From positions 1 to 64,000 of the forward strand of contig CAMWUJ010000005.1 in NCBI GenBank assembly GCA_947177405.1: a stretch of 64,000 nt of DNA, read 5' to 3'. Position 1 is the first letter of the stretch, and every line of letters begins with the position of its first letter. This document shows, in pieces, positions 32,365 to 58,539 of this stretch. The stretch is from an uncultured Porphyromonadaceae bacterium. Lineage in GTDB: Bacteria > Bacteroidota > Bacteroidia > Bacteroidales > Muribaculaceae. The notes beneath the pieces are model-generated. The model ran no database searches, was not told where the DNA came from, and was given only the letters and a program-made list of their open reading frames with translations. The translations under genes were made by a program, and so were the position numbers.

Positions 32365-33761
32365 CCCCCTCCCCTATCTCTTTTGCTCATGACACAATTG
32401 TAGCCGTCTCCACCCCTCCGGGAACAGGAGGAATCTCAGTGGTGCGTATCTCCGGACCGGACGCATTGGATATCGTAGGATCCGTATGGAGAGGCACCCC
32501 TCTTTCCGACTGCACTACCCACACAGCTCACCTTGGCCGTATTGTAGATGAATCGGGATGCACCCTCGATGAGGTGGTGGCCACTCTATTTCTTAACCCC
32601 AACTCCTACACCGGCGAAGACACGATCGAACTTTCATGTCATGGTTCACGATGGATTCAGAGAGAAGTGGTGAATCTTCTTATCCGCAACGGTGCGAGAG
32701 GTGCCGGTCCGGGAGAATTTTCGCAACGAGCTTTTCTCAACGGCAAAATCGACCTGGCACAGGCCGAGGGTATTGTGGATCTTATATCATCCTCTTCGCG
32801 GGCGGCTCATCGCCTTGCCATGATGCAGGCAAACGGACAATTTTCCAAACGTCTTGAAGATCTGCGCCAACAGCTCATAAACTTCGCCTCTCTTCTTGAA
32901 CTCGAACTCGATTTCTCAGAAGAGGATGTGGAATTTGCCGACCGACAGCGTCTGGCTGATCTTGCCGACCGGATAATCGCCCAACTCGACAAGATGGCTG
33001 ATTCATACGCTGCCGGAAAAGCTTTCAAAGAGGGCATCCCTGTGGTGATTGCAGGGGAACCGAATGTGGGTAAATCCACCCTTCTCAATCTTCTTCTGGA
33101 GGAGGACAAGGCGATTGTCAGCTCCATCCCCGGTACCACCCGCGACATAATAGAAGATACCCGTGAGATCAACGGTGTTCTCTTCCGTTTCATTGATACA
33201 GCCGGGATACATTCCACCGAAGATGTGGTGGAACAAATCGGAATCGACCGTGCCACGGATCGTCTCCGGCGTGCTGCCGTAATCATCTGGATGGTAGATA
33301 CCACCTCCGACATCCTCTCACAGCTGCACACCATCGAAAATCATCAGAACGAAATTAATCCCGAAACCTATCAATACCTAATCTATAATAAGATTGATCA
33401 CCCGGACAGCCGACTTGACAACCTACCTCCTGTGCCGGAATACATAAATGCGGTGAACCGTATTTCGGCTTCGGCGGCCACGGGAGTGAAAGAGATGATG
33501 GGACTGCTCACCGATGCGGCCGACAAGATGATAAAGGAAGGAGATGAGATGATGCTCACCAACGCCCGTCACTATGAAGCGGTGATAAAAGGGAGGGAAG
33601 CGCTCAAGCGGGCGCGCACGCAGCTGGACGCTATGATATCAGCCGATTTCATAGCACAGGATGTACGAGAATCCCTCCACCATCTCGGAGAAATCACCGG
33701 CACCATCTCCACCTCCACCCTACTCCATTCCATATTCAGCCGGTTTTGCATCGGCAAGTGA
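32361..33761 (+). CDS. mnmE: tRNA modification GTPase MnmE
   Basis: 466 residues from the ATG at 32361, which overlaps the nuclease stop (an alternative ATG is at 32349). It has the N-terminal folate-binding domain (TIVAVSTPPGTGGISVVRISGP), G motifs GEPNVGKST, TTRD, DTAGIH and NKID, and the family-defining C-terminal CIGK. With MnmG it makes cmnm5U34 in tRNA. Its last codons form the left attachment site of the accessory elements; reading continues cleanly to TGA, so integration did not damage the protein. Confidence 0.97.
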   Translation: MTPSPISFAHDTIVAVSTPPGTGGISVVRISGPDALDIVGSVWRGTPLSDCTTHTAHLGRIVDESGCTLDEVVATLFLNPNSYTGEDTIELSCHGSRWIQREVVNLLIRNGARGAGPGEFSQRAFLNGKIDLAQAEGIVDLISSSSRAAHRLAMMQANGQFSKRLEDLRQQLINFASLLELELDFSEEDVEFADRQRLADLADRIIAQLDKMADSYAAGKAFKEGIPVVIAGEPNVGKSTLLNLLLEEDKAIVSSIPGTTRDIIEDTREINGVLFRFIDTAGIHSTEDVVEQIGIDRATDRLRRAAVIIWMVDTTSDILSQLHTIENHQNEINPETYQYLIYNKIDHPDSRLDNLPPVPEYINAVNRISASAATGVKEMMGLLTDAADKMIKEGDEMMLTNARHYEAVIKGREALKRARTQLDAMISADFIAQDVRESLHHLGEITGTISTSTLLHSIFSRFCIGK

Positions 33762-33830: not shown

Positions 33831-33956
33831 TTTGCCCGAAGATAGCCAAACTAATCGGTAGAACCCGTTTCTACCTATTTTTCACTCCATTTTTGAACCA
33901 CATTTGTTGCTCGTCTGCTACCCGAGTTAAGTTGCTCTGCTCGGTAGTGGATGATG

Positions 33957-34000
33957 TTCATACTCGTTCACGCTCATTCAGGCGTATTCATACGAGTTCA
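33957..34000 (+). promoter_or_regulatory. Five TTCA iterons with exact 10-bp period
   Basis: TTCA occurs at 33957, 33967, 33977, 33987 and 33997, with partly conserved flanks (ctcgTTCAcgctc-like). The array ends 41 bases before the tandem-HTH gene. The exact helical phasing suggests binding by the multi-HTH protein on one face of the DNA. Confidence 0.6.
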
Positions 34001-34041
34001 ACGAAATAGCTCAATGAGTGACACAATTTTAACTCACAGTT

Positions 34042-34806
34042 ATGGCAACTTCAAACATTAGAATCAAGAAGGTCTGTCAGTGGTGTGGAAATGAGTTTGA
34101 GGCTCAAAAGACCACAACCCAGTATTGTTGTAAGCGATGTGCCGAGCACGCTTACAAAGAGCGTAAAAGACAAGAGAAGAAGAAAATTACTGAAACTCTT
34201 GATTCGCTTACTGCTCGTGAAAATAAGATAAACCAACTCTCAGGCCGAGACTATCTATCGGTTGCTGAAGTGGCGCAAATCCTTAATGTTACGCCAAGGT
34301 CAGTATACAATCTCATTTACCGAGGTACCATCAAAGCCTATCGTCTCACCTCACAATGGGCAGTAATCAAAAGAGCGGATATTGACGCAATGATCGAGGC
34401 TCGTCCTTATGAACGTAAACCGAAAGCGACCGCACTTGCCAATGATGAGAACGGTGAGGCAATCTCAGAATTTTACACGACAAAGGAGATTATCGAGAAA
34501 TTTGGAGTGAGCAATTCATGGGTATTCGCTCAGGGGAAGGCTCACAATATCCCGAAGGTGTATCATCGAGGGAAGACACTCTGGAGCAAGACGCATTGTG
34601 ACCGGGTGTTTACGGCAAAGCCTGAAACTCCGAAAGAAAAAGATTGGATATCGTATTCCGATGTGCGCGCAGAATACAATCTGACGCATGACCAGCTTCA
34701 CAATTATGTGAAGTATCACGGACTGCGCCGTAAGAAAGTCGGAAAGTACTCTTATATCTTTAAGTCTGAAATCGATGCGATTCTCCGTCCTCCTACGTTG
34801 AAATAA
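34042..34806 (+). CDS. Zinc-finger plus tandem-HTH regulator (element A)
   Basis: 254 residues. An N-terminal treble-clef-like finger (CQWCGNEF ... YCCKRCAEHAYK) is followed by three MerR/excisionase-type HTH units at about 72-125 (LSVAEVAQILNVTPRSVYNLI), 146-195 (YTTKEIIEKFGVSNSWVFAQG) and 207-252 (ISYSDVRAEYNLTHDQLHNYV). It is homologous to the 300-residue protein at the start of element B. Position before the integrase suggests a directionality factor or autoregulator. The helically phased repeats upstream and the GGTTATC array downstream are its likely targets. Confidence 0.75.
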   Translation: MATSNIRIKKVCQWCGNEFEAQKTTTQYCCKRCAEHAYKERKRQEKKKITETLDSLTARENKINQLSGRDYLSVAEVAQILNVTPRSVYNLIYRGTIKAYRLTSQWAVIKRADIDAMIEARPYERKPKATALANDENGEAISEFYTTKEIIEKFGVSNSWVFAQGKAHNIPKVYHRGKTLWSKTHCDRVFTAKPETPKEKDWISYSDVRAEYNLTHDQLHNYVKYHGLRRKKVGKYSYIFKSEIDAILRPPTLK

Positions 34807-34987: not shown

Positions 34988-36103
34988 ATGAATATCTGCA
35001 CTAAAGTAACCCTTCGGCAGCGTCTTCTTAAATCGGGTAAGATCACGCTGTATTTCGACTACTACCCTCCAATCCGCAACCCGAAAACCAACCGTATGCA
35101 ACAGCATGAGTATCTTGGTATATACCTATATGCCAATCCCACCAATCAGGTTCAGCGCGATTTCAACCGCTCGATGCTTGAAAAGGGTGAACTAATCCGT
35201 TGTCGCCGTCAGGAATCTGTCATTAACCGTCAGTTCGGTTTCATCGACCACAGCCAACTCAAAGCTGATTTTCTGGAATACTTCGAGGCTGTTACAAAGA
35301 AGAAGTATCAGAAATGGCGCATCGTGTTTGAACACTTCAAGGTGTTCTGCAAGGGCAAATGCACCTTCGGAGACCTCACAGTAGAGTTCTGCACAAAGTT
35401 TCGCGAATATCTGCTTTCAGCAAAGCAACTGAAACATAAGCGAAAAAGTCTGTCTCAGAACGCTGCAGCCGGATATTTCTCCACATTCCGTGCCCTTCTG
35501 AAAATGGCATACAAGGAGAAGCTGATCACAGAGAACATCAACGACTATCTGGAATATATCGAATGGGAAGATGTTGAGCGTGAATTTCTGAATCAGGATG
35601 AACTGATACGGCTTGCTCAGACTCCATGTGACAGTGATGTCCTCCGCAGAGCGTCTCTATTCTCTTGTCTGACAGGACTGAGGTTCAGCGACATTCTCAA
35701 TCTCCGATGGAATAATATTCAGGAAGTTGCCGGAATCGGACTATGTGTTGTTCTGAAAACTCAGAAAACGAAGACACCTGCCACTCTCCCTCTATGTGAG
35801 GATGCTATCGAACTTCTTGGTGAGCGACAGACAGGAAAAGTATTTGTTGGATTTAAGAAGACTCTGACAGCCAAACCACTCAAAGAGTGGATAAAGGCCG
35901 CCAAGATAGACAAACGGATAACTTTTCATTGTTTCCGTCATACTTATGCGACATTACAGATGGCGATGAGCAGCAATCCCTACCTAGTTAGTCAGGCGCT
36001 TACACATAAGAATCTTGAAACCACTCTCCGATACACTCACAATGTCCCAACTGCCCTCGTTGACACATTAGGGAAAATCTCAATAAAACCAAAGACTGAA
36101 TAG
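34988..36103 (+). CDS. Tyrosine recombinase (integrase) of element A
   Basis: Start set at ATG 34988 (MNICTKVTLRQRLLKSGKITLYF), matching the paralogue in element B. The 371-residue protein has the arm-binding and SAM-like N-terminal domains typical of Bacteroidetes integrases, and a catalytic domain with Arg in SCLTGLRFSDILNL, the beta-hairpin Lys region (KTQKTKTP), HxxR in FHCFRHTYATL and the nucleophile in TLRYTH. It should recombine the att cores at the mnmE 3' end. Upstream 36 codons of the track ORF lie in the operator region and were excluded. Confidence 0.93.
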   Translation: MNICTKVTLRQRLLKSGKITLYFDYYPPIRNPKTNRMQQHEYLGIYLYANPTNQVQRDFNRSMLEKGELIRCRRQESVINRQFGFIDHSQLKADFLEYFEAVTKKKYQKWRIVFEHFKVFCKGKCTFGDLTVEFCTKFREYLLSAKQLKHKRKSLSQNAAAGYFSTFRALLKMAYKEKLITENINDYLEYIEWEDVEREFLNQDELIRLAQTPCDSDVLRRASLFSCLTGLRFSDILNLRWNNIQEVAGIGLCVVLKTQKTKTPATLPLCEDAIELLGERQTGKVFVGFKKTLTAKPLKEWIKAAKIDKRITFHCFRHTYATLQMAMSSNPYLVSQALTHKNLETTLRYTHNVPTALVDTLGKISIKPKTE

Positions 36104-37171: not shown

Positions 37172-37241
37172 GGTTATCGGTTATCTATTGGTTATCTGGG
37201 TAATAACTTGATAACCGGGATATAACCAATGAACTTTGCGG
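37172..37241 (+). promoter_or_regulatory. GGTTATC operator/promoter array, copy 2 (upstream of mobilization genes)
   Basis: Matches 34811-34880 at most positions (ggttatcggttatct, ttggttatctg, aataacttgataaccgg, gaactttgcgg). It precedes the small HTH gene and VapE-relaxase block, indicating coordinate control of integration and mobilization. Confidence 0.75.
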
Positions 37242-37271
37242 CACGATTTCAAAAATAAATCGTTCCGCAAT

Positions 37272-37646
37272 ATGAACAATAAAACTCCATTCGAGGCAGT
37301 GCCTCAGATTGTGGCTCGGCTTGAAGAGAAGCTCGATGCCCTGACCGAAACAGTCACTAAACTATTTCAACGGCTATACACACCCCCACCAGAAGATCCG
37401 GAGGAGATGGTAGCAATCACTGAGGCCGCCAATATCCTTCATCTATCCGTATCAAGAGTACGCGCTCTCGTGCAGGAAGGGCGTGTGCCTTGCTACAAGC
37501 CAGGGAGAAATCTGCTGTTTCTCCCTTCTGAGCTGCGCCGATGGCTCTCAGACAGCAAGCGCAGAGGACAATCCTCAATAGAGGAACAAATGGTTTTGAT
37601 GACCAAAGGTATGCGCAATAGCGCAAAAGGAAGGAGGTTTTCATGA
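37272..37646 (+). CDS. Excisionase-like single-HTH protein
   Basis: Start at ATG 37272 (MNNKTPFEAVPQIVARLEEKL), since the first ATG of the ORF lies in the promoter array. The 124-residue protein has an N-terminal coiled-coil-like helix (about 10-35) and a MerR/HTH_17 domain (about 48-95; AITEAANILHLSVSRVRALVQEGRVPCYKPG). Such small proteins act as excisionases or regulators in Bacteroidetes mobile units. It overlaps the VapE gene by four bases. Confidence 0.8.
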   Translation: MNNKTPFEAVPQIVARLEEKLDALTETVTKLFQRLYTPPPEDPEEMVAITEAANILHLSVSRVRALVQEGRVPCYKPGRNLLFLPSELRRWLSDSKRRGQSSIEEQMVLMTKGMRNSAKGRRFS

Positions 37647-45352: not shown

Positions 45353-48300
45353 TCAAAGTCGATTCTTTACGTTTCGATACCATGCATAATAAATGTCCTT
45401 ACGTGTATCGCCACCGAGGGAATAATCTTTCATTAAAGATTGACGAACGATAAGGTTAACGTTCTCTGTCTCTTGTCCAATTTGTTCTGTTACAAGGTTA
45501 CATAATTTTGAATCTAATTCTTCGAATGTTTTAGATCCCTTTGCATACTTTTCAACAACACTTCGGACACCGAGCAAATCAGTTATTAGTTTAGCTAAGT
45601 CTTCGAAGTTATCGTTATCCCAGAGACTGAGTTTATCCGTTTCTCCATACTCTTTTATGAGATTGGATAACAGAATCTTCTGTGCAGTGGTAAGTTCTGA
45701 TGAGAATTTGGCCTGATTAACAACATTAATGTCGAAATCAACTTTCTCAGGTATACGACCATCGATTAAGAACTTAATCACTTCAGCGAGATTGTCAGGA
45801 TTGCTTTCGTCAATCTCTTGTGGTGTATAAGAGTATTTTACAGGATCCTCTTTCCGGAGAGAAATCTTACACAATACAGGCTCTTCCCAATCATTCTGAT
45901 AGGTTACCGCAACACCTGTGGAAAGCTTTGCTATCTCATCAAGCTGCGAGTCATTAAGCCCCGCTGATTTACCAGCAATTCTGCGATCATCGCCATCCGG
46001 TAATCGCATTATGAATTTGGTATTTGTATTCTTAATGGCTGCTGGGTCAACACTTGTCGGTGATTGGTCAACAATAACGAAGCCTTCCCCATATGTTCGC
46101 ATTTCAGCAATTGAGTTTGTAATCATCTCGACTGCTTTACCCGCGAGGTTACTTCCTTCTTGAGACTGCTCGGTCGAAGTTCGTTTGAGTATATTGTGAG
46201 CTTCCTCAAGCACTGTAATATGCTTTAATCCCACATTTGCCTCAGTAGCATTCACCATCCGGTATTCATTGAGTCTCATTACAAGAATACCCATAATCAG
46301 AGCCTTCGTTTCTTGTGAGCCAATCCTACTCAAATCCACGATAGTATCCGTATCGAATAGTGTTTCGTCAGGAATTTCAACGCCACCGAATATTGCACCA
46401 TTTAAGCCGTTGGTCAGCGACTCCACTCGTGTCACCAACGACCCGATGTAGTTGCCTTTTACCTCTTCTGAGTAAGCAGAATCCTTAATAACCTCTTCCA
46501 ATTCGACGAGTAAGTCATTGAAAGTCGGGAAGAAACGATCATACTTGTTTCTATTATTCAAAAGATTCCACCCCGCCTTTTCGTATGATTGAATTATGGC
46601 TTTCTTAAGTACGGCAGGCATAGCAGCATACATAGGCCAACATACATTGAATATCTCCGTAAGACGGTCAATATGTTCCAATACATGTATTCCTTGGGGG
46701 AATCTGAAGGGATTTATATGCAATAATTGCGTTATCTCGGGATTCGATCCATAAACGTTTGCATCACCGAATACATTTTTATATTCTCCCTTAGCTGGTT
46801 CCACAATTAGGAACTTCGCGCCTTTCTTCTTAGCTTGCGAAATAAGTCGGTATACAGTTTCGGACTTCCCGCATCCCGTTGAGCCTGTAACAAATACATG
46901 CTGGGTCAAACTTTTGGCTTCAATATTCACTAGATTATTTTCTCTGATTTTGCCTTGATCAAAGATACAACCCATTTGTAACGCGCGTTCAATCTCTTTC
47001 CCGGATTGTGTAACCACTTCTTTACCAAGTGAGATGTGCTCTAATACAGGGAAACCCGGTACAGACTTTCTTGGCAATCCCATCTGCATGGCAAGTTCTG
47101 CCGTGCTAATAAGGCTGGAAGCAGTAACCGGTATTTGTTGATCTATTTTTGTATTTTCAAAAATGAAAGTGGGATGTACGAAACTTGTAATTGATGTGGT
47201 CAGAAGCTTTATCTTTTCAGGTGTTTTGGTATCGAGCCATCTATTTACAGCGGAGGCCTCAATACCTGATTTCTCTCCTTGCATTATTGATCTAAATATA
47301 GCCGCGGCAGTCTCAGCCGTATCTCTATCATTTTCATATGATAAGAAATAAGATCCTGACGCCCAAACGCCAGTGCCTTCAGCTATCGCTAATCTTTCAA
47401 GTTGATTGTCAATACGCTTTAGAATTTCTTCAACATGTTTGTTGTGAACCGTCAAAGTAAAGTTCTTGGAAGATCCAACAGAGACGGTTCTACCATTGGT
47501 CTCGCTAAATTGCTCAGTAGTTGACTCCGAATCGGTTACATTACGATTCTCTGTGTGATTTTCTTGTTTAGCATTGGCCTCTGAGGTGCCACTTGTTTTT
47601 TGGGGAGCATTAGCTCCTGCTGCAGCTAATGCAGCTCCTCCGCCTACAAGTGCCAATCCAGCAGGAGCACCGATACCAGTTGCCATTAGAGCAACACCAC
47701 CGATGGCTGCTAAAGCGCCGCCAATAATACTGCCAGCTTGGGCAAGTCCACTCTTCTTGGAAACACTATGATTGGTAGTATGAGTAATAGTCGTACCGGT
47801 TGTATCCGAGGTGCCTTCCGAAACAGCATGGGATTTTGAATTTGATGTTCCATGAGTACGACTAATTGCGTTTGCAAGTGACTCGGTTGTAGAATACGCA
47901 ACCTGTTGAGTTGCAACCGCAGACATTTGGGTATAAAGTCGCTCATATCCGTGTCTCACTTCAGCAAGATTATCTCCGGAAATATTCGATGCTAATATAA
48001 TCGCAGTATATTCCTTCCCTTGCATTGCAAGAGCCAGTTTTTCTATTCCCTGTATAAATGTCTGATTAGTGTATTTTCCATCCTCATCCTTATAAGAAGG
48101 GATCCCTGAGCATGAGCAAACGCTCGATGCTTGATTGAATCGTTCAAAAAGCTGTTGTTGTGATGAAAGACTTCCAACATGTTCAGGGACGGAACATTGT
48201 TCCAAGTCTATCCCAGGAAATTGACCTTTTAATGAGTTCTCAAATGTTTCAGCAACCGAACTATCTGTCCTTCTTTCATCGTTATTTCTTATACCAATGT

Positions 48301-48748
48301 AGAAATCAGTCCTATCCTTATGGCCATCGAGTATGAGAAAAACGGAGCAATCTGCGTAGCTCATTGCTCCCAATGCATTGATAAATTTTTCTGTTGCATA
48401 TTCATCTTTCTCATATACCATCTTATTAACCTTAAACACGATAGTATTTCGACCAATTTCGTTTTTGTCAACGGGCACAATTTCCATATCTGATAGTCGC
48501 ATGACATAGTCTTTAGTAACTATATCATCAACCATTGATAATGCTTGCAAGGCTTGCGATGAATACGATTGCATCTCAAGCTGATTTTGCCTCATTAATG
48601 CAGCATGATCATCTTCCTTTACAACTTGGGCGATAGCTGTTGGATCATCGACCTTAGTAGGAGATGAAGTTTTATCAGCAATGGGAGTTCCATTAAGAAG
48701 TGCATCTAACTCACTGTTTCTTTTCTTTTTGTCGTGGATAGTCCCCAT
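45353..48748 (-). CDS. HerA/FtsK-like ATPase with glycine-rich membrane segment
   Basis: 1131 residues. The N-terminal 280 form an uncharacterised domain. A Ser/Thr-rich linker (SYSTTESLANAISRTHGTSN) leads to a Gly/Ala-rich hydrophobic stretch at about 335-385 (AGSIIGGALAAIGGVALMA). Another linker follows, and the C-terminal half is a HerA/DUF87-type ATPase with Walker A GSTGCGKSETVYRL (about 620) and Walker B ITVLEEAHNIL (about 846). HerA/FtsK ATPases pump DNA or protein as hexamers. The membrane segment hints at a pump or gate at the envelope. It is flanked by dynamin-like GTPases and toxin-type genes. Confidence 0.8.
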   Translation of the reverse strand: MGTIHDKKKRNSELDALLNGTPIADKTSSPTKVDDPTAIAQVVKEDDHAALMRQNQLEMQSYSSQALQALSMVDDIVTKDYVMRLSDMEIVPVDKNEIGRNTIVFKVNKMVYEKDEYATEKFINALGAMSYADCSVFLILDGHKDRTDFYIGIRNNDERRTDSSVAETFENSLKGQFPGIDLEQCSVPEHVGSLSSQQQLFERFNQASSVCSCSGIPSYKDEDGKYTNQTFIQGIEKLALAMQGKEYTAIILASNISGDNLAEVRHGYERLYTQMSAVATQQVAYSTTESLANAISRTHGTSNSKSHAVSEGTSDTTGTTITHTTNHSVSKKSGLAQAGSIIGGALAAIGGVALMATGIGAPAGLALVGGGAALAAAGANAPQKTSGTSEANAKQENHTENRNVTDSESTTEQFSETNGRTVSVGSSKNFTLTVHNKHVEEILKRIDNQLERLAIAEGTGVWASGSYFLSYENDRDTAETAAAIFRSIMQGEKSGIEASAVNRWLDTKTPEKIKLLTTSITSFVHPTFIFENTKIDQQIPVTASSLISTAELAMQMGLPRKSVPGFPVLEHISLGKEVVTQSGKEIERALQMGCIFDQGKIRENNLVNIEAKSLTQHVFVTGSTGCGKSETVYRLISQAKKKGAKFLIVEPAKGEYKNVFGDANVYGSNPEITQLLHINPFRFPQGIHVLEHIDRLTEIFNVCWPMYAAMPAVLKKAIIQSYEKAGWNLLNNRNKYDRFFPTFNDLLVELEEVIKDSAYSEEVKGNYIGSLVTRVESLTNGLNGAIFGGVEIPDETLFDTDTIVDLSRIGSQETKALIMGILVMRLNEYRMVNATEANVGLKHITVLEEAHNILKRTSTEQSQEGSNLAGKAVEMITNSIAEMRTYGEGFVIVDQSPTSVDPAAIKNTNTKFIMRLPDGDDRRIAGKSAGLNDSQLDEIAKLSTGVAVTYQNDWEEPVLCKISLRKEDPVKYSYTPQEIDESNPDNLAEVIKFLIDGRIPEKVDFDINVVNQAKFSSELTTAQKILLSNLIKEYGETDKLSLWDNDNFEDLAKLITDLLGVRSVVEKYAKGSKTFEELDSKLCNLVTEQIGQETENVNLIVRQSLMKDYSLGGDTRKDIYYAWYRNVKNRL

Positions 48749-48751
48749 GGA

Positions 48752-49282
48752 TTACTTTCTATTATCATTAATTATCAGAAGAACCCCTCCCACGAATATA
48801 GCGCCTCCAATTATTGAAAGCGCAGTCATTCCTGTACACATTCCAACAGTAGCAACAATAGCGCCACCAACTGCTACGCCACCCGATACCTTAGTAATCT
48901 TGATGGTGCGTGTAGGATGTTCTAGATGGGAATCTTTATCATCTACTACAGGCAATGCTTCTTCCTCTTCAACCTCAATTGCCTTATCTTTCCCTACAAA
49001 CTTCACAACAGCTTCATAAAAAGCCAATTTCTCTTTTGAGAAGTTTGCGTCCAGATCACTTTTGACTTCATACATGAAGTCTTCGTCCCATTGATCTTTA
49101 GGTGGAACTGCATAAGAGGCACCTTTGTTTCCCTCAAAAAGATTTGGAAGGTGCGCTACAGCATATTCGAGCATCTCGTTGAATGAAACGCCTCTAGGGT
49201 CAAACAGCAATTCGCTTGATAAAGCGATTCTCACCATTGCCACATTGCCGTTATCAACGGCTTCTTTATATTCGTTTTTCAT
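48752..49282 (-). CDS. Small protein with C-terminal membrane hairpin
   Basis: 176 residues. The first 125 are soluble, with an acidic linker (AIEVEEEEALPVVDDKD). The last 45 contain two closely spaced hydrophobic helices (VAVGGAIVATVGMCTGM, LSIIGGAIFVGGVLLII). It lies three bases before the HerA-like gene and nine after the large GTPase. It may tether the complex to the membrane. No family recognised. Confidence 0.65.
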   Translation of the reverse strand: MKNEYKEAVDNGNVAMVRIALSSELLFDPRGVSFNEMLEYAVAHLPNLFEGNKGASYAVPPKDQWDEDFMYEVKSDLDANFSKEKLAFYEAVVKFVGKDKAIEVEEEEALPVVDDKDSHLEHPTRTIKITKVSGGVAVGGAIVATVGMCTGMTALSIIGGAIFVGGVLLIINDNRK

Positions 49283-49291
49283 TATCCTATT

Positions 49292-51577
49292 TTAAAAGTT
49301 AATAAGTTTGTTAACTCTGGCAATAATGCCCTCCATCCATTTCAGTTCTTCGCGCTGCCGTTTAATTTCCTGTTCGGTTTGTTCGGCTGCATTTGTACTC
49401 CGCTGAAGTTCAGTCAATTTTGATTCAAGGATTCCATCAATCTGGCCAAGCACTTTCTTAAGAACGTTTTTAATACGTTGACCTTCTTTCTGAGTATGGT
49501 TTTCTGCCGCCTTCTTTGCTTCTACCAACTGAGCATGCATAGGAAAAAGGTACTGATATGCAACAGATGACATGTCAACATATTCAACGTTCTTTGCAAC
49601 CCATTCTTGATATTGACGGTCGTAATATTCCGTATCATATCTTTCAGAGCCCCAGTTCCATGGAGTCCAGAACCAGTTCGTTTTTTTGACTTTACGAGAC
49701 TCCCGCTTGGTTTTGGTCTCATAATGTCCTTCATCGATAGTCTGAGTGCTCTTTTTTATAAGAGAATCGATATTGGCAATATCTTCGGAGACAAAATCCA
49801 ACGGAGAGAGATTAAGGTCGACATCCTTTATGGCCAAACTAATTGTTTTGAGGTGTTCCTTATACATATCAAGAATGTCTGAATATAACGTCTCAAACGC
49901 CTTGGTAAGTACATCATCTATACGAGCATCTAGTTGAGTTAGAATAGTAGAAGATTCCTTCTGGATCTCTTTAACCTGACGTAGAGCATCAGATTTTGGA
50001 ACTTTTGAGGACTTTTTGTGTGTGAATATTATCTTGTCAATTCTTTTACCAAGTTCATTAATGAAAGGATTGATTTCACCTGATACGTTTTTGGTAAAAT
50101 CTTTCTTGTCAATAAGTGCTGACAGAACCTTGGCAGCATCTCCAGAACTAATGATCTTTCTAATTCGCTCGATGTCCTGATTGAGTTTTACCTTGCGCTC
50201 TTCACTACAACGAATCTCTTCTTTTAGTGACTCTATTGCAGCCAGTTCCTTTAATCGATTATTAAAAGACTCTACAAGGTCTTTTACCTTTAGTGCTCGA
50301 GCATATTTGTTTACGTACAAGGCCACGGCCTCTTCAACTGACACAATCCCGCTATGAATCTCGACTTTCTCTTCTTCTGTGGCCTCTTTTAGCAGACGCT
50401 CGATTTCCTTTTTAGACGAATGAGGAAGATTATTAAACTCATAATAGGAGTCGAACTTCATCTCTTCAAAATACTTCAAGGCATCTTGAAAAGAATCGAG
50501 TGTACTATGTCTAACAGGATTTGTTCGACATTCGAGCGCAACCTGAGCCGAAATTGGGTATATGTTGGGGAACATGATACCACGTTCTTCAAGAACTTCT
50601 TTTGCCTGACGCAATGCACCTGGGATATCATCATCCTCCGGGTTAAAAGCATCCATTTTGTTGATGGCGAAGATATAACGTTCTCGTGATTGTTTACCTC
50701 CTTCTTTCATACAATTGCATACATAGTCCATGAAAGCGGCTTCATCGTTAACACTTAAATTAGTACCATTCATTACAAACAATACGAGAGATTTATCAGA
50801 ATCATTAAGCATCTGATATGTCATCCTCTCATGGTCCTTATCGCGCGAGTTATTTGGTCCTGGAGTGTCAACCAATATTAATTTCATTCCAACCGAATCA
50901 ACGCATGGAATGCGTCCATAAATATCAATTGCCGAAATCGCTTTATCAGCATTCCACGCTTTCATTTGAGAATATTCGATATTATTCTCCTTGTAGAGCA
51001 CGCCTCCATTGGAATCGTATGCTATCGCGCTGAAATTATCCTGATTAGTATCAATGATTCGTACAATAGTAGCTGTTGTAGCAGTATTTGCGACAGGCAT
51101 GAGTTTCTTACCCAGTAGTGCATTAATTAATGTGGATTTACCCGAACTCATTGTCGCAACGACATTGATTTCAAACTCTTGATTCTTAGCCTTCTTAAAA
51201 GCCTCAACAATATCGGCATCCTTGAGACTTTTGACCGGACCCTTCTGGATTTCCACAAATATATTATCTACCTCGCCTTCTACCGATGACACATCAGGGA
51301 TATTCTCTTCGCGGCTCCATTTTGAAACAGATACGATGTCAGATTTGCTATTAAAACCGTCCTTTAAGTCGTTATAATCAGTAGGAGTACCAATAAAGTG
51401 GATATTGAACTCGCGGTCACTGCTTTCCTTGACAAGAATTTCAGGAAGTTCTTCCGCCCACTCCTGTATGCGCAATTTTCCGAAGTGCAACTTACTGTTG
51501 TCCTTCGGTTCCTTCCCGTCAATCAGAATCTCAGTCTGAATGTGATATGGGTTGTATTTGATCGTTATTTTTTTCAT
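49292..51577 (-). CDS. Dynamin-like GTPase, large
   Basis: 761 residues. An N-terminal beta-rich domain (about 1-110) precedes a dynamin-type G domain with G1 ATMSSGKSTLINALLG (about 141-156), a switch-I region TATTATIVRI, G3 LVDTPGPNNSRD, and G4 INKMDAF. The C-terminal 350 residues are long helices with a basic and aromatic tip (KKTNWFWTPWNWG) that could insert into membranes, then a coiled coil. Bacterial dynamin-like proteins often occur in tandem pairs, as here, and fuse or seal membranes. Its start overlaps the second GTPase gene by four bases. Confidence 0.88.
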   Translation of the reverse strand: MKKITIKYNPYHIQTEILIDGKEPKDNSKLHFGKLRIQEWAEELPEILVKESSDREFNIHFIGTPTDYNDLKDGFNSKSDIVSVSKWSREENIPDVSSVEGEVDNIFVEIQKGPVKSLKDADIVEAFKKAKNQEFEINVVATMSSGKSTLINALLGKKLMPVANTATTATIVRIIDTNQDNFSAIAYDSNGGVLYKENNIEYSQMKAWNADKAISAIDIYGRIPCVDSVGMKLILVDTPGPNNSRDKDHERMTYQMLNDSDKSLVLFVMNGTNLSVNDEAAFMDYVCNCMKEGGKQSRERYIFAINKMDAFNPEDDDIPGALRQAKEVLEERGIMFPNIYPISAQVALECRTNPVRHSTLDSFQDALKYFEEMKFDSYYEFNNLPHSSKKEIERLLKEATEEEKVEIHSGIVSVEEAVALYVNKYARALKVKDLVESFNNRLKELAAIESLKEEIRCSEERKVKLNQDIERIRKIISSGDAAKVLSALIDKKDFTKNVSGEINPFINELGKRIDKIIFTHKKSSKVPKSDALRQVKEIQKESSTILTQLDARIDDVLTKAFETLYSDILDMYKEHLKTISLAIKDVDLNLSPLDFVSEDIANIDSLIKKSTQTIDEGHYETKTKRESRKVKKTNWFWTPWNWGSERYDTEYYDRQYQEWVAKNVEYVDMSSVAYQYLFPMHAQLVEAKKAAENHTQKEGQRIKNVLKKVLGQIDGILESKLTELQRSTNAAEQTEQEIKRQREELKWMEGIIARVNKLINF

Positions 51578-52656
51578 TGGTTTAGAATTGTCGTTTCTAA
51601 ATTGGTTAATCCGCTTCTTGCAAAATAGTCATCTTCTGATGAGCAAATGCCGGTACCATACATACCAAAGTCATAGAAGAGCGAAGACATTTTTTCTTTC
51701 AAAGATTTGAGTTCACTCTCCTCAAACTGAGAGAGGGTGTGATCCAACTCTTTTTTTAACAAAAAGGCTGCCTTTGCTGAGAATGGTATGATTTGAGCAT
51801 TCGACTTCTTACTCTTAAGAAGTTGCCTAAATTGCTTTAGGCTCTCTTCTATAGAGTCATCGGCAGGGTCAAATCTATCAAGCTGATTAAATATAAACAA
51901 GATATTTTTTTTATTTTGCTTTAAGATGTGTCTTATAAGTTCATCCTCACCGTTTCTCTCTATATATGGGCCATTATTAACGCAGATTAGTAAATCGTAA
52001 TCACCTCGATTGATTGCATCATAAGTTACTTTCTTATGTGATGTATCATAAGCATAGTCAACCCCCGGAGTATCGGTAATGATAAGAGGTTGGCTTTCCA
52101 AACTTCCATGAAATCTCAGCGCCTTATTGGGAATATCTTCAATCGCAATTTCCCTATCATTACTATTGATATAACTTGACCCGTCAGAATATAGCAATGT
52201 ATCTCTGAACGGATTGTTATAGAGATACGAAATAGAGGTAGTGCATACTGTAGTTTTCACCTTTGCCACCTTCCGCCCAACAAGAGCATTAACCAATGTA
52301 GATTTACCTGCACTCATTGTAAGCACGATTAGTAGACGCTTTGTCGGTTTCTGTCGGAATGAAATCTCGGCAACGGACTGCTCGACCAAGTTAGAGGGTA
52401 AACCGTTCCCATTTCCACCGTTAAGAAAAAGTTCTTTTACATACTTTCTGTACTTCTTTGAAAAGAATCCGGTTGCTCCTTTTAGTCGCTTGTCATAAAT
52501 GTCATACGAGATTGGAAGGCCTGCTTGGAATGCGATTCTGTATACATCCCACCAGAAACAGTCAGACATTCTAAAGAATCTTAAGCCATTTCTAATCAGA
52601 GATTGCGCAGCTTTGATATTCTTGTTGTCTTTCGATTGCTTCCATCCGTCTGTCAA
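51574..52656 (-). CDS. Dynamin-like GTPase, small
   Basis: 360 residues. G1 TMSAGKSTLVNALVG (about 113-127), TTVCTTSISYL as switch I, G3 ITDTPGVDYAYD, and G4 FNQLDRFD are all present. It lacks the long C-terminal helical stalk of the larger partner, so it may be a regulatory or hetero-oligomeric subunit. The first 100 residues are helical and aromatic (MSDCFWWDVYRIAFQAGL). It precedes and overlaps the large GTPase gene. Confidence 0.85.
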   Translation of the reverse strand: MTDGWKQSKDNKNIKAAQSLIRNGLRFFRMSDCFWWDVYRIAFQAGLPISYDIYDKRLKGATGFFSKKYRKYVKELFLNGGNGNGLPSNLVEQSVAEISFRQKPTKRLLIVLTMSAGKSTLVNALVGRKVAKVKTTVCTTSISYLYNNPFRDTLLYSDGSSYINSNDREIAIEDIPNKALRFHGSLESQPLIITDTPGVDYAYDTSHKKVTYDAINRGDYDLLICVNNGPYIERNGEDELIRHILKQNKKNILFIFNQLDRFDPADDSIEESLKQFRQLLKSKKSNAQIIPFSAKAAFLLKKELDHTLSQFEESELKSLKEKMSSLFYDFGMYGTGICSSEDDYFARSGLTNLETTILNQ

Positions 52657-52844
52657 AACTTCCCTAGAAGTGTCTCACATAATACATCATAACAGAACTT
52701 AGCCTTATAACTCATTTGGCTATTAGGCTCAATCGCACAAAGAGTCTCCCCAAGTCCACGAAGATACTTAATCTTCAGTCTCTTTGGAAGACCATTGATT
52801 GGATGATTTGCGGGTATTATGTTTGAAGTTATAAGCCTCTGCAT
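52653..52844 (-). CDS. Small hypothetical protein
   Basis: 63 residues, basic (LPKRLKIKYLRGLGETL), soluble, with no recognised family. It overlaps the start of the small GTPase gene by four bases and follows the candidate anti-sigma gene directly. Tight packing argues for a real gene. Confidence 0.5.
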   Translation of the reverse strand: MQRLITSNIIPANHPINGLPKRLKIKYLRGLGETLCAIEPNSQMSYKAKFCYDVLCETLLGKF

Positions 52845-53111
52845 TTAAAATAGTATGTTTTTAGGTTTATTATCAATATTTGAAGGAATTTCTTGATTAT
52901 AAATTTTTTCTAAATAACGTTCACATTCAGGTATTCGTATTGGCTCCAAATCACTGAGTATACTCTCCAATGATTTTGCGTCTTTGGTCACCTCTATTAT
53001 CTCTTCAATCATTGAATCTTTCATTGAATCGGAGTACACTAATCGCTCCAAAGGGGTTAGCTTATCATCAATAAAAGATGCTATCAAATTGTCGTCAATT
53101 TTTTGCTCCAT
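52845..53111 (-). CDS. Candidate cytoplasmic anti-sigma or regulatory protein
   Basis: Start at MEQKIDDNLIASFIDDKLTP (53111), two bases after the sigma gene. 88 residues, very acidic, helical N-terminus (IASFIDDKLTPLERLVY), reminiscent of the zinc-less anti-sigma domain of Bacteroidetes ECF partners. There is no membrane helix. Location immediately after a sigma factor gene is the main support. Confidence 0.5.
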   Translation of the reverse strand: MEQKIDDNLIASFIDDKLTPLERLVYSDSMKDSMIEEIIEVTKDAKSLESILSDLEPIRIPECERYLEKIYNQEIPSNIDNKPKNILF

Positions 53112-53113
53112 CT

Positions 53114-53662
53114 CTATACTAATAATATACAACGTAATTGTGCAATCGCCCTCCTATGAATATTGTATAAGTTTGCAACTGTGACGCTAAGTTCAGCAGC
53201 GGCATCTTCATAGGAGACCTCTTGCAAGTCCAGCAACTGAATAGTCCGTTTATATCTCTCATTTGGCATCGCATCAATGGCCATCGGTAGATTAACGGAG
53301 TCCTCCGAGATATTGGTGAAAATATTTTTATCATTCTCTATTATTAGAGCCTCCGAAGATTCGTTTTCTATCAGCTTATCTCGCTTTCGAATGAAAAATC
53401 TGGTTGCTACTACCGTTATCCAAGTCATCAAAGAACTATTGTAGTTGAAATCTTTAAGCTTTCTCCAATTATCGTAAGCAAGGAACAGAAATAATTCATT
53501 CACAAGTTCGGTTTTGTCAATGCGTCCGGAGAAAACTGAGTTCAGTATATACACAAACATATTAGAACACTTCTCGATAAAGAAGTATTCAATAATAATA
53601 GGATCGTTGTTAAGAATTCCTCTAACAACTTCTTCATCCGTAAATTCGACAGTCCTTTTCAC
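53114..53662 (-). CDS. ECF-type sigma factor of the cargo operon
   Basis: The track begins at a TTG; the better start is GTG 53662 (MKRTVEFTDEEVVRGIL), giving 182 residues. Region 2-like helices (IEYFFIEKCSNMFVYILN, WRKLKDFNYNSSLMTWITVVATRFFIRKR) and a region 4 HTH (VSYEDAAAELSVTVANLYNIHRRAIAQLR) are visible. It is the first gene of the series running down to 43055, so it may drive its own operon. No consensus TAnnTTTG box is seen just upstream, consistent with an alternative promoter. Confidence 0.8.
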   Translation of the reverse strand: MKRTVEFTDEEVVRGILNNDPIIIEYFFIEKCSNMFVYILNSVFSGRIDKTELVNELFLFLAYDNWRKLKDFNYNSSLMTWITVVATRFFIRKRDKLIENESSEALIIENDKNIFTNISEDSVNLPMAIDAMPNERYKRTIQLLDLQEVSYEDAAAELSVTVANLYNIHRRAIAQLRCILLV

Positions 53663-53721
53663 AACTAATATTTTAACAATAGTATTAAAAACAATAATTA
53701 CCAATTATTAAATATCAAGTT

Positions 53722-55113
53722 TTAAATCAAAAGCAAACTGAAATCAACATCTGGGATGATTGATTTTTGAAGTTTATCCTTGATAAGGAAACCCATGTAT
53801 AATGGGATTGTTAATACCTCCCCCTGTCGTCCTACATTATATTGACCTAACTTAATCGCATTGTTGACATGATATACGTCTTTGTTCTTAAGCACGGTAG
53901 TCATACTCTTTGCCTTACCAGTCTTGGATTTTACCTCAATAAGCATACACTCGCCATTAAACCGTACTAAAAAATCTATTTCAAGGCCGCTATCCTTATG
54001 AAAGTAATATAGTTTCTGACCCGATTTACATAGAAAATCTGCCATTAGATTCTCAAAGATCGCGCCCTTGTATCCAAGCAGATTTCCTTTCAGAATGTCT
54101 GCTTGAGTGCCATAATCAAGCATTCCCATTAGAATGCCTATATCTGTCGTATACACCTTAAAGCAATCTTCAATGGCGTTACCACTCAGCGGAAGTTCAG
54201 TGGTGGTTGTATTATAACATCTTTCTACAACTCCGGCATCCTCAAGCCATTGAAGACTTCCCTTAAATTGGGAGGCTCTACCACCCTTTCTAACCACAGA
54301 GTATTGGAATTTCTTATTTTCCTTCGCCAATTGTTTTGGTATGGACTCAAAGCACTCCCGAATATGAGGTTTATCTGTATCATCTGCATATTTAACCATA
54401 TCCTCTTCATATTCGGCTAAAAGAGTTCGTTGTGTCTGGTAAATCAAATCAATATTTTTCGTTTCAATAAAACAGTTCACAACTTCCGGCAACCCTCCGA
54501 CTATGACATATCTATACAATAACTCCATCATTGCTTTATGAATACCATCAGGAACCGCGCTTTCGTTCTCAAAACACAACCTAACAGTGTCTATGACCTT
54601 AGTGGCAACCCCGTTCGCCCATAAGAATTCCTCAAAGTCCAATGGATACATATCAACTATAGTCTCATATCCTACCGGAATTGAATCTACACCCTCATCT
54701 TCCTTTTTCCCCTTTTTATGTTTGCCGTACCCCTTTACTCCTAAAAGAGAGCCGGTAGCAATAACATCGAAGCGTTTATCCAACTTAAATGATTTAAGGG
54801 CTGTTCTGGCCTCCTTACACTCTTGAATCTCATCAAGGATTATACAGGTTTTACCGTTAATGAATCTGGCTCCCGGAATAAGGGCCGAGAGGTTGAGGAT
54901 TATAGTATCAACATCAAGGTTGCCCGTAAAAGCCGATTTCTTATCGGGTTCAAGTAGAAAGTTCATGTATACCACATTTTGGTAATTCTCCTTTGCAAAT
55001 TTTTTTACAATAAAAGTCTTACCGCATTGGCGAACACCTTTTATCACCAATGGTTTCCTATCTTCAGCCTGTTTCCACTCTGATAAATATGTCTCGATTT
55101 TTCTTCTAAGCAT
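53722..55113 (-). CDS. ATPase of the AAA_14/DUF4143 family (element A)
   Basis: 463 residues from MLRRKIETYLSEWKQ (55113). Walker A GVRQCGKTFIVK, Walker B ILDEIQEC, sensor VIATGSLLG, and the C-terminal DUF4143 PD-(D/E)XK-like segment (SGLEIDFLVRFNGECMLIEVKSK). The start is fixed by a TAAATTTG box at 55133-55140 (minus strand), which lies inside the longer ORF. It ends 59 bases before the sigma gene and could be co-transcribed with it, though it is a common stand-alone gene. Confidence 0.86.
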   Translation of the reverse strand: MLRRKIETYLSEWKQAEDRKPLVIKGVRQCGKTFIVKKFAKENYQNVVYMNFLLEPDKKSAFTGNLDVDTIILNLSALIPGARFINGKTCIILDEIQECKEARTALKSFKLDKRFDVIATGSLLGVKGYGKHKKGKKEDEGVDSIPVGYETIVDMYPLDFEEFLWANGVATKVIDTVRLCFENESAVPDGIHKAMMELLYRYVIVGGLPEVVNCFIETKNIDLIYQTQRTLLAEYEEDMVKYADDTDKPHIRECFESIPKQLAKENKKFQYSVVRKGGRASQFKGSLQWLEDAGVVERCYNTTTTELPLSGNAIEDCFKVYTTDIGILMGMLDYGTQADILKGNLLGYKGAIFENLMADFLCKSGQKLYYFHKDSGLEIDFLVRFNGECMLIEVKSKTGKAKSMTTVLKNKDVYHVNNAIKLGQYNVGRQGEVLTIPLYMGFLIKDKLQKSIIPDVDFSLLLI

Positions 55114-55132
55114 ACTTCTCTTGATTTCATTC

Positions 55133-55140
55133 TGCAAATT
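55133..55140 (-). promoter_or_regulatory. -7 box of the DUF4143 gene
   Basis: TAAATTTG on the minus strand, about 20 bases before the start at 55113. Confidence 0.65.
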
Positions 55141-55269
55141 TACACTTTTTAGAGCGTAAATGCAAGGACTTTCCACATTTTTTCAAGGGAATATGCAAAG
55201 ACCCATCACACTTTTTCAAACGAATAAAATAAGAATGCTACATTTTTTGTAACGAATGAGGAGTCGAAT

Positions 55270-55465
55270 GTTGCGTATGTCGCCGATTTTTGCTAATTTT
55301 GTAATCGAAAGCAGCAAGCTATGAGTGGCTTGAAGATGGAGGCTTAGATAGTCTTCGGAAAAATGAAAGGACAATGGTTTTACTTTCAATTACTTACAGA
55401 AATTGAGGTTGAACCTTTTAAACTGTAATTCCTTGATTCAACGATAGTTTACCACACTGTATCGG
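55270..55465. repeat. Terminal approximately 195-bp repeat, copy in element A
   Basis: Nearly the same sequence occurs at 62866-63063, roughly 88% identical by eye, with both copies ending in an mnmE-like TGTATCGG. It includes a promoter-like TTG-N20-TAATTTTG, a small hairpin (AAGCTA tgag TGGCTT) and the inverted pair TTACAG/CTGTAA. It marks the right end of element A and probably holds integrase-binding sites and/or a small RNA gene. Confidence 0.85.
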
Positions 55466-55469
55466 CAAA
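55458..55469. repeat. Internal attachment site attM between elements A and B
   Basis: tgtatcggcaaa matches the mnmE end codons (Cys-Ile-Gly-Lys) and the right att core. It directly follows the terminal repeat of element A and precedes the left end of element B, whose sequence (ttggtaaatacc) differs from that of element A. Confidence 0.75.
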
Positions 55470-55654: not shown

Positions 55655-55690
55655 TGGGACACTCTGAGACACATTGGGACGCGCTGGGAC
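55655..55690 (+). promoter_or_regulatory. Four TGGGACAC iterons with exact 10-bp period
   Basis: TGGGAC, TGAGAC, TGGGAC and TGGGAC occur at 55655, 55665, 55675 and 55685, mostly followed by AC. The array ends 31 bases before the tandem-HTH gene of element B. It mirrors the TTCA iterons of element A in spacing but not in sequence. Confidence 0.65.
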
Positions 55691-55721
55691 ACTTTTGTGT
55701 AACTTTTAACAGAAATAACCG

Positions 55722-56624
55722 ATGAGCAGTACAATTGACATCAACAAGATTTGCGAGTGGTGTGGCAAAGAGTTTATAGCCCACAAATGCACTACTCGCT
55801 ATTGTTCCAAGCGATGTAGTGAACACGCTTATAAGACATTAAGGCGAGAAGCACATGTAAAGAAAGAGAATCTGATAACACAAGAGAAGAAAGAAGATAA
55901 AAAGAAACCTCTCGGAAATTACTTTACCCCTCGGCAATGTGCCGTCTTACTTGGTATTGGAAAGTCTTCTGTCTATCGTTGTCTTGCAGAAGGACTAATT
56001 CCTTGCATACGTTTGAAGGGAAAGACCCATATCAGCCGGGCAAGCATTGATAAGATGTTTGAGAACCCTCCTGAATATATCAAGAGGGAGAGGAAGGAGG
56101 CCGAACCCATTGAAGAGTTCTACACTACGAAAGAGATTCTTGAGAAATTCGGTATCAGTAATTCGTGGCTATTCAAGATGGCTAAGGAACGGAACATTCC
56201 GAAAACCGTAGTCAGAGGAAAAACGCTCTGGAGTCGAAAGCATTATGATAAAGCTCCTGCAGATAAACAACCCACGGAAGTTGCCGAGGAAGAATGGTAT
56301 TCGGTTGAGGAAGTTTGCGCCAAGTTCAACATGTCTAAGGAGGCTGTCTATCGGTTCGTGTCTGAACGGAAGATTTGGAAGCGAAAGGATAAGTTCAAAG
56401 TATTCTATTCGCGCCGCCAGTTCGACAAGGCAATGGGTGTGGAGACTGAACTTGAGTCCGAATATTATACTATGCCTGAAGTAATGGCTAAGTATAATAT
56501 GACTCGCGATCAGATTTCGCATTACATCCGTGCTCATAATATTCCGCGTACATACGAAGGAAGATATGTGAAAATAGACCGAAAGGCTCTCGATGCCTTA
56601 TTCGCGCCTCCGAAGTTAGGTTAA
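55722..56624 (+). CDS. Zinc-finger plus tandem-HTH regulator (element B)
   Basis: 300 residues, homologous to the 254-residue protein of element A but with one more HTH unit. The N-terminal finger is CEWCGKEFIAHKCTTRYCSKRCSEHAYK. HTH units lie at about 67-115 (FTPRQCAVLLGIGKSSVYRCL), 131-180 (YTTKEILEKFGISNSWLFKM), 190-240 (YSVEEVCAKFNMSKEAVYRFV) and 247-297 (YTMPEVMAKYNMTRDQISHYI). It probably controls integration and binds the phased repeats upstream. Confidence 0.78.
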   Translation: MSSTIDINKICEWCGKEFIAHKCTTRYCSKRCSEHAYKTLRREAHVKKENLITQEKKEDKKKPLGNYFTPRQCAVLLGIGKSSVYRCLAEGLIPCIRLKGKTHISRASIDKMFENPPEYIKRERKEAEPIEEFYTTKEILEKFGISNSWLFKMAKERNIPKTVVRGKTLWSRKHYDKAPADKQPTEVAEEEWYSVEEVCAKFNMSKEAVYRFVSERKIWKRKDKFKVFYSRRQFDKAMGVETELESEYYTMPEVMAKYNMTRDQISHYIRAHNIPRTYEGRYVKIDRKALDALFAPPKLG

Positions 56625-56717: not shown

Positions 56718-57827
56718 ATGCTACCCTCAACTTGTTCTAAAGTAACGCTCCGTATGCGTCCGATCAAAAACGACAGACTCTCCCTCTATCTTGACTATTA
56801 TCCCCCTATCCGTCATCCAAAGACGATGAAGATGACGCGAAGGGAGGGACTGGGTTTCTATATATTTGCAAATCCGAAGGGGAAATACCAGAAGGAGTAT
56901 AATGATGCGATAATGATGCGTGCGGAAGTGATCCGCTGCCGTCGCCAGGAGGCGGTGATAAATGAAGAATTCGATTTTATTGACCGCGAGCAGCCCAAGG
57001 CTGATTTCCTTGAATATTTCCGCAAGAAAGCAAAGAAGCAATACGAAAAGTGGACCGTCACATATCGGCACTTTGAGAAGTTTGTAAAAGGTAAATGTAC
57101 TTTCGGGGAGGTGACAGTGGAACTTTGCAATAAGTTCCGTGACTATCTGCTGACAGCAAAGCAACTGCGATATCCCAAATTGAATATCTCACAAAATTCA
57201 GCTGCCGGCTATTTCTCCACTTTTCGTGCATTGCTGAAAGCAGCTTATAAGGAAAGACTCTTTAAGGAAAATCTGAATGACTTTATTGAGGAGATTGAAT
57301 ATGAGGAAGTGAAGAAAAACTTCCTTACTGCCGAAGAGGTAAAGCGACTGGCGGCAACTCCATGCGAAAAACCGGTATTGAAGGCTGCTTCCCTTTTCTC
57401 CATCCTTACGGGATTGCGGATAAGTGATATTCTCAACCTATGTTGGGAGGATATTCGTCCGGATGCCGATGGTAAATTAGCTGCATTCATACGTATTCAA
57501 AAGACACAGAAGGAGTCGGTGCATCCCCTGAGTGATGAGATGCTGGCTCTATGTGGCGAAAGAAAGACGGGAATTGTTTTCAAAGGTTTCAATCGCTCTA
57601 TGACGCAGGCTCCTCTTAAGAAATGGCTGAAAGCTGCCGGTATCACCAAGCGTATCACCTTTCACCGCTTCCGGGATACTTTCGCTACTCTCCAACTCGC
57701 TGCGGGCACAGACATTTATACAGTCAGCAAGATGCTTGACCATGCCAACGCAACTACCACCAAGATCTACGCGAAACTGGTGGATTCCACAAAACGAGAG
57801 ACTGTTGATAGAATCAAGCTTAAATAA
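56718..57827 (+). CDS. Tyrosine recombinase (integrase) of element B
   Basis: 369 residues, aligned end to end with the integrase of element A (SKVTLRMRPIKNDRLSLYLDYYPPIRHPKT). Catalytic residues: Arg in SILTGLRISDILNL, Lys region RIQKTQKESV, HxxR in FHRFRDTFATL (Asp replaces the His after Arg), and Tyr in TTKIYAKL. The TAGTTTTG box at about 56680 is a plausible promoter. It should act on the mnmE-tail att core shared with element A. Confidence 0.93.
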   Translation: MLPSTCSKVTLRMRPIKNDRLSLYLDYYPPIRHPKTMKMTRREGLGFYIFANPKGKYQKEYNDAIMMRAEVIRCRRQEAVINEEFDFIDREQPKADFLEYFRKKAKKQYEKWTVTYRHFEKFVKGKCTFGEVTVELCNKFRDYLLTAKQLRYPKLNISQNSAAGYFSTFRALLKAAYKERLFKENLNDFIEEIEYEEVKKNFLTAEEVKRLAATPCEKPVLKAASLFSILTGLRISDILNLCWEDIRPDADGKLAAFIRIQKTQKESVHPLSDEMLALCGERKTGIVFKGFNRSMTQAPLKKWLKAAGITKRITFHRFRDTFATLQLAAGTDIYTVSKMLDHANATTTKIYAKLVDSTKRETVDRIKLK

Positions 57828-57863: not shown

Positions 57864-57871
57864 TTAACTTT
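57864..57871 (+). promoter_or_regulatory. -7 box of the RelE/HigB-HigA pair
   Basis: TAACTTTG fits TAnnTTTG and overlaps the TTG taken as start in the ORF track, so that start is rejected. Confidence 0.65.
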
Positions 57872-57881
57872 GCATATAAAT

Positions 57882-58235: not shown

Positions 58236-58539
58236 GGCTAAAATAGAAGCAATCAAGAAAGCCTCAACATTTGATGAACTTCTTGATGCGGAATACGGGA
58301 TGGTAGGAACACCTGCCAGAGATCAATTCGAAAAGGACGCTGCAGCCTTCTGTCTTGCGGAAACTTTAAAGGAAGAGAGAGTACGAGCCGGCTTAACTCA
58401 GGAGCAACTGGCAGAGCGCATTGGCACGAAGAAAACCTATATCTCCCGTTTGGAGAATGGAAAAGCTGATGTCCAACTCGGCACATTGTTCAGAATCTTT
58501 GAGGGTCTTGGCAGAAGAGTGTCTATTACAATTCTTTAA
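58228..58539 (+). CDS. XRE-type antitoxin of the RelE/HigB-like pair
   Basis: 103 residues. The first 55 bind the toxin, and an HTH follows (LTQEQLAERIGTKKTYISRLENGKADVQLGTLFRIFEGLG). It overlaps the toxin gene, the usual toxin-first order of this family, and should repress the shared promoter. Confidence 0.9.
   Translation: MDKAKIEAIKKASTFDELLDAEYGMVGTPARDQFEKDAAAFCLAETLKEERVRAGLTQEQLAERIGTKKTYISRLENGKADVQLGTLFRIFEGLGRRVSITIL

Follow-up and report, generated by a model that had tools for sequence, protein, structure and literature searches.

Winged helix-turn-helix (wHTH) recombination directionality factors (RDFs) are usually small, single-domain proteins, although this does not define them. 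Apl of phage 186, P2 Cox, lambda Xis and RdfS all go with direct repeats spaced by roughly one helix turn, close to att sites and promoters. Apl and related wHTH directionality factors bind such repeats cooperatively, presumably with one monomer per repeat, and bend the DNA (PMC7498355). Helix-phased RDF sites are already known. Excisionase-type proteins often show only a weak sequence preference, or one that is difficult to define; RdfS, for example, has no apparent consensus motif (PMC11963761). Two other groups of proteins are relevant. BldC of Streptomyces, a MerR-like wHTH protein, binds direct repeats head to tail (PMC5859096), and in MerR-family factors helix positions 1, 2 and 6 read bases and covary with the site, as detected by Prot-DNA-Korr (PMC5045206). 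TnpA of Tn4555 is described as the product of a targeting gene; without it insertion is nearly random, and within the TnpA family this steering to a preferred target is known for Tn4555 only (PMC5704250).

We describe a locus that resembles each of these systems in part. It has direct repeats one turn apart near an att site; unlike the small single-domain proteins Apl, P2 Cox, lambda Xis and RdfS, however, the associated proteins have a zinc ribbon and one to four HTHs, and the repeated word diversifies together with the first of them (HTH1). In contrast to the system studied here, BldC is a chromosomal developmental regulator that uses 9-bp repeats and has no integrase. Covariation of recognition-helix positions with site bases is shared with the MerR family, whose sites are palindromic and bound by symmetric dimers rather than being phased arrays in mobile elements. 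Like Tn4555 TnpA (L284), which has a zinc ribbon and four HTHs, the protein is encoded directly 5′ of a tyrosine integrase and has a 10-bp array upstream. TnpA is about 25% identical to L023 over 96% of the length of L023 (tblastn from L023 to TnpA records, E 2e-28), and full-length homology together with the position 5′ of int places our protein in the Tn4555 TnpA family. Tn4555 differs from the element described here in having two arrays and in inserting with low specificity outside mnmE. The two arrays, with the words TTGAC and TTTAC, lie separately upstream of the Tn4555-type tnpA (L284:2170–2488), each phased at 10 bp; the literature searched on Tn4555 TnpA reports no array or recognition code. 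The family-wide covariation between HTH1 and the repeat word and the exchange of cassettes described below look new, being undescribed within the literature searched.

Tandem elements and their phased arrays

The window, that is, the whole stretch of 64,000 nucleotides analysed, contains three copies of an att core, TGYATCGGMAA, starting at 33747, 55458 and 63055. The left copy (TGCATCGGCAA, 33747–33757, + strand, an exact TGYATCGGCAA) lies at the 3′ end of mnmE and forms the left end of element 1, the second (TGTATCGGCAA, 55458–55468, +) separates elements 1 and 2, and the third (TGTATCGGAAA, 63055–63065, +) is the right att copy of element 2. The right ends of the two elements, which finish at copies 55458 and 63055, are identical at 179 of 196 positions, and the left junction matches the 63-kb att copy at 33 of 35. 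Three att copies with matching ends therefore indicate two elements in tandem. Element 1 (33747–55468, +), bounded by att copies, is an integrative mobilizable element in mnmE. Just inside it lie a gene for a 254-aa protein (34042–34806, +) and then a tyrosine integrase with Arm-DNA-bind_5, SAM-like and catalytic domains (34988–36103, +, likely ATG at 34988). Element 2 starts in the same manner, with an array of its own (GGGAC/GAGAC/GGGAC/GGGAC at exact 10-bp spacing, 55656–55695, +), a 300-aa paralogue with a zinc ribbon and four HTHs (55722–56624, +) and a tyrosine integrase (56718–57827, +).

Array 1 (33957–34006, +) lies some 200 bp inward from the left att copy. It consists of five TTCA at exact 10-bp steps (starts 33957, 33967, 33977, 33987 and 33997), as an earlier note on this DNA had claimed; the copies themselves span 33957–34000 and leave a gap of 41 bp to the gene start at 34042. 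A pattern search found this arrangement once in the 3.27-Mb genome, where the reversed pattern, used as a control, had zero matches. TTCA is the sole 4-mer with five copies at 10-bp spacing in the window; no five-copy 4-mer was found there at spacings of 8, 9, 11, 12, 13 or 14 bp, nor in 20 dinucleotide shuffles of the window. Ranked by lag-10 self-match, the top two regions of the window are array 1, with a score of 15, and, with a score of 12, the array that precedes the paralogue at 55.7 kb. A coding origin of the repeats was rejected, since a 10-bp period is out of step with triplet codons.

Other short motifs accompany the arrays. A GTGGA box (33947–33951, +), noticed by eye, lies 10 bp 5′ of the first TTCA and is shared with the upstream regions of many relatives; it occupies the same position in many elements whose proteins have 3–4 HTHs. 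A GGCGAAAT-like box lies 5′ of the array in short forms and 3′ of it in some long forms. Many homologues also have a second conserved word pair 5′ of the array, at about –200 to –110 (e.g. TTTGTACC and TTGTACC, 10–12 bp apart), which possibly represents integrase arm sites or a promoter.

The protein downstream of array 1 is a putative array reader of the TnpA(Tn4555)/excisionase-like type, as judged by sequence families and an AlphaFold model. The zinc finger and three HTH units that the earlier note had described appear in this model (mean pLDDT 82.5) as a zinc ribbon, a long helix and three winged HTHs; with a pTM of 0.37 the model does not define the mutual placement of the domains. The zinc ribbon comprises residues 8–33 (34063–34140, +), and its cysteines C12, C15, C29 and C33 are invariant among 23 homologues. 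HTH1, the proposed array reader, covers residues 71–120 (34252–34401, +) and is also detected by sequence as HTH_17 (E 1.5e-16), with a recognition helix at residues 85–94 (34294–34323, +; DSSP on the AlphaFold model). HTH2 (about residues 144–190, 34471–34611, +) and HTH3 (about residues 202–248, 34645–34785, +) are placed by the model. The protein family scores above the cut-off for the NCBIfam ‘excise’ domain TIGR01764 and matches PHROG 66, ‘excisionase and transcriptional regulator’. In fold searches, the whole chain gave nothing at E 0.001 or better and only single-domain matches are meaningful; at the domain level, the best matches include BldC and Pukovnik Xis (probability 1.00, TMt about 0.8). 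A sequence search of the PDB returned Pukovnik Xis (Gp37) as the sole plausible match, at E 0.31. Thus, HTH_17, TIGR01764 and the fold match to Pukovnik Xis all point to a MerR/Xis-like winged HTH. By size, the 254-aa protein with its zinc ribbon and three HTHs falls outside the small single-domain class, although one-HTH relatives of about 117 aa exist.

Conservation of phase, change of word and exchange of cassettes

We collected 152 distinct upstream regions of genes for zinc-ribbon/HTH proteins by searching the genus, the order and the class as well as GTDB contigs; the nearest named relatives are mostly Muribaculaceae. Scans of viral contigs for the short form gave no matches. A lag-10 self-match score of at least 12 was reached by 62% of the 152 homologue upstreams and by 2.5% of 550 control upstreams, taken from other genes at these loci. 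A-tracts or a general 10-bp periodicity of the DNA were rejected as an explanation because so few of the controls had a strong lag-10 score. When lags from 4 to 40 were compared, the best lag was 10 in 105 of the homologue upstreams and 20 in 24. Across the class Bacteroidia the 10-bp phase is kept and the repeat word is changed: besides TTCA, we found GGGAC, GACAC, TGCAC, GGTAC, CGGAC, TATAC, TTGAC, TTTAC, GATAC and others. Homologues lacking phased repeats, which the earlier note had named as grounds for dropping its proposal, are thus not what we observed; the phase is retained and the word differs. The arrays begin 38–122 bp 5′ of the start codon in every protein size class, and the mean number of repeats stays at 4.0–5.0 for proteins with one to four HTHs, the HTH number being deduced from protein length.

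We next asked which part of the protein changes with the word. Repeats were set in the register NNNAC, in which 128 of the 152 upstreams exceeded the 1% shuffle threshold, with the caveat that the register score favours AC at positions 4–5. The main set comprised 66 clusters of HTH1 at 80% identity. Over the whole protein, residue 90 was the top position for column 1 (z about 12.6) and residue 86 for column 3 (z about 11–12.5, 1.35 bits). Counted in clusters, Arg at residue 90 goes with G as base 1 in 28/33, Tyr with T in 6/6, Asn with T in 7/8 and Lys with T in 12/15; at residue 86, Arg goes with C as base 3 in 20/20, Met with T in 4/4 and Ala with G in 4/4. Both proteins of the window fit their own words: N90 and R86 of the 254-aa protein agree with T (base 1) and C (base 3) of TTCA, and R90 and S86 of the paralogue with G (base 1) and G (base 3) of GGGAC. 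Column 2 had no clear reader residue of its own in the covariation scan. Residues of the C-terminal HTHs stayed at z ≤5.4 in every column and ≤3.6 in columns 1 and 3, and the zinc ribbon, despite equal linkage to the array, reached at most 5.2. Correspondingly, word similarity tracks HTH1 (partial r 0.40) and not the C-terminal part (–0.09). Base 6 of the repeat covaries with two residues of the HTH1 wing, 101 (z 9.1) and 105 (z 6.3), as if the wing contributed to reading too.

The signal was retained in an enlarged set of 161 arrays in 84 clusters (z 13.1 and 11.7), where leave-one-cluster-out accuracy exceeded the baseline both in column 1 (0.81 against 0.52) and in column 3 (0.59 against 0.39). 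With coarse clustering (28 clusters at 60% identity) support became weak, 24 and 21 of 1000 shuffles (about 2%) reaching the signal. Simple rules applied to a small first set of novel hold-out clusters were right in 4/6 for column 1 and 1/4 for column 3. Residue 86 depends on context, with Trp, Thr and Ser going with mixed bases and Gln86 with G within one clade alone. Given the context dependence of Gln, Ser, Thr and Trp at 86 and the mixed hold-outs, a simple universal code was partly rejected; the HTH1–word code is incomplete.

In the AlphaFold model residues 86 and 90 are positions 2 and 6 of the recognition helix. In the BldC–DNA structure, on direct repeats, the equivalent helix is 25–34, and Lys26 and Arg30 make base contacts in the major groove, Arg30 with guanine (PMC5859096). 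Lys26 and Arg30 occupy the same helix positions as 86 and 90, an equivalence inferred from where the helices start and from the fold match.

Comparison of closely related elements revealed that the array, the zinc ribbon and HTH1 are swapped between elements as one cassette. In the pairs L001/L005, L008/L010 and L096/L040, the flanks, 5′ of the array to about –250 and 3′ from about +390, are about 80–100% (roughly 95%) identical, and the stretch with the array, zinc ribbon and HTH1 is mostly 45–80% identical at the DNA level. C-terminal parts are 97–100% identical where HTH1 is only 40–60% identical and the words differ. L212, conversely, has the HTH1 and word of L008 with a different C-terminus. 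Tandem co-resident arrays, such as the TTC/GGG pair, do differ in word; a general avoidance of the same word by co-resident elements was unsupported, since the words of 17 same-genome pairs differed no more than those of 308 between-genome pairs (0.34 vs 0.34).

Reading of the array

The earlier note had seen the array as a likely target of the adjacent protein on one face of the helix, a view supported at the sequence level by the phasing that homologues retain, and the array appears to be functional. Its further claim, that the three HTHs of one molecule contact successive TTCA copies on that face, fares differently. The array does adjoin a multi-HTH gene, and HTH units might in principle space out along DNA. 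Yet one-HTH proteins of about 117 aa (L232 and L242) are also preceded by about 5 repeats, which argues strongly against reading in series. Repeat number does not increase with HTH number, the Spearman coefficient of –0.33 having the wrong direction for serial reading. The HTHs within a protein differ from one another, whereas the repeats are copies of one word; covariation with the word is confined to HTH1; and near-identical HTH2–HTH4 occur with unrelated repeats once HTH1 differs. We regard serial reading as very improbable. Slightly less credible still is that the array and HTH1 covary through neighbourhood and joint inheritance alone, with no contact. The two do lie within about 400 bp, and significance drops with coarse clustering, but the equally linked zinc ribbon lacks a comparable signal, and the peak falls at exactly two helix positions, those equivalent to the BldC base contacts, with chemically sensible pairs. 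Covariation limited to HTH1 and a repeat number that stays at about 4–5 argue that, most likely, several protomers read the array, each placing its HTH1 on one repeat.

We consider it probable that the adjacent protein binds the array and is the partner of the integrase, acting as a wHTH RDF or, like Tn4555 TnpA, as a targeting factor, with HTH1 of a separate protomer on each repeat. The matches to ‘excise’ and PHROG 66, the precedent of Apl and the kinship with TnpA together point to an integrase-partner protein that lines up via HTH1. The array, the conservation of phase rather than sequence, the HTH1–repeat covariation, the exchange of cassettes and the genetic setting are computed results, and we infer binding, the head-to-tail arrangement, bending, autoregulation and a role in excision or targeting. 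On every 10-bp repeat, HTH1 of one protomer would insert its recognition helix into the major groove, where residue 90 would read base 1 and residue 86 base 3 of NNNAC. Four to five protomers would stand head to tail on a single face of the helix, since the repeats are one turn apart. This row would probably bend the left att arm and thereby allow the integrase complex to form, and would probably also cover the protein’s own promoter. HTH2 and later units would not read the array, for which they are not needed, given the short relatives that have arrays; their probable binding partners are other DNA of the att site or the integrase. The short form L019, inserted at mnmE with a protein of only about 119–139 aa, suggests that they are not needed for the mnmE site either.

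Three further readings give the protein a different or additional task. As a targeting factor, it would hold the element’s array by HTH1 and the target by its C-terminal HTHs, steering insertion into mnmE. This overlaps the integrase-partner explanation and accords with the closest studied relative, TnpA, which is encoded 5′ of int behind two phased arrays and without which insertion becomes nearly random (PMC5704250). Against it, elements that share mnmE as their target carry different C-terminal HTH sets, and the protein of L019 is small, leaving targeting in this form unlikely. Slightly more doubtful is an integrase partner with two addresses, in which the cassette of array, zinc ribbon and HTH1 is the element’s own address, read by a two-residue code and a protomer filament, and a second address, in the target or in common att DNA, is read by the conserved C-terminal HTHs. 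Were this true, elements at one chromosomal site could be distinguished, and the exchange of a single helix could re-wire specificity. A pure autoregulator would repress or activate its own operon, together with int, by way of the array and take no direct part in recombination. Such a role would suit the start of the arrays 38–122 bp 5′ of the start codon in all size classes, and Apl and BldC are likewise regulators (PMC7498355, PMC5859096). The constant position beside the integrase near an att end, the resemblance to excisionase families and the influence of TnpA on integration (PMC5704250) make it improbable.

These findings have wider consequences. This widespread Bacteroidia family offers about 80 natural protein–site clusters in which one helix and a 10-bp word change together in a fixed frame, so that wHTH recognition rules and RDF specificity become directly testable. 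It also gives a means of locating att arms and partner proteins in many mobile elements of the gut that are uncharacterised, and for Tn4555 TnpA it suggests a lead at the molecular level.

Excision candidates and cargo of the two elements

For the protein of element 2 an excision role is favoured from gene content, because no other excisionase-like gene was found in that element besides the paralogue. Element 1 encodes a separate HTH_17 protein (37236–37646) between the integrase and a VapE-like gene, and this protein may be its excisionase, which counts against the integrase-partner explanation for the 254-aa protein. A further point against it is the description of Tn4555 TnpA, the sole relative studied, as a targeting factor (PMC5704250).

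Both elements carry cargo. That of element 2 (57870–62740) is mostly toxin-antitoxin-like and includes a Gp49/HTH pair, a DUF3990 protein with DUF3791-HTH (PDC-M13 in PADLOC) and an ATPase_2/DUF234 protein (PDC-S27). On the minus strand of element 1, the region 45353–55176 encodes a HerA/DUF87-like ATPase of 1131 aa, two dynamin-family GTPases of 761 and 360 aa, a sigma-like factor and an ATPase matching PDC-S01 in PADLOC; it looks like a candidate defence island.
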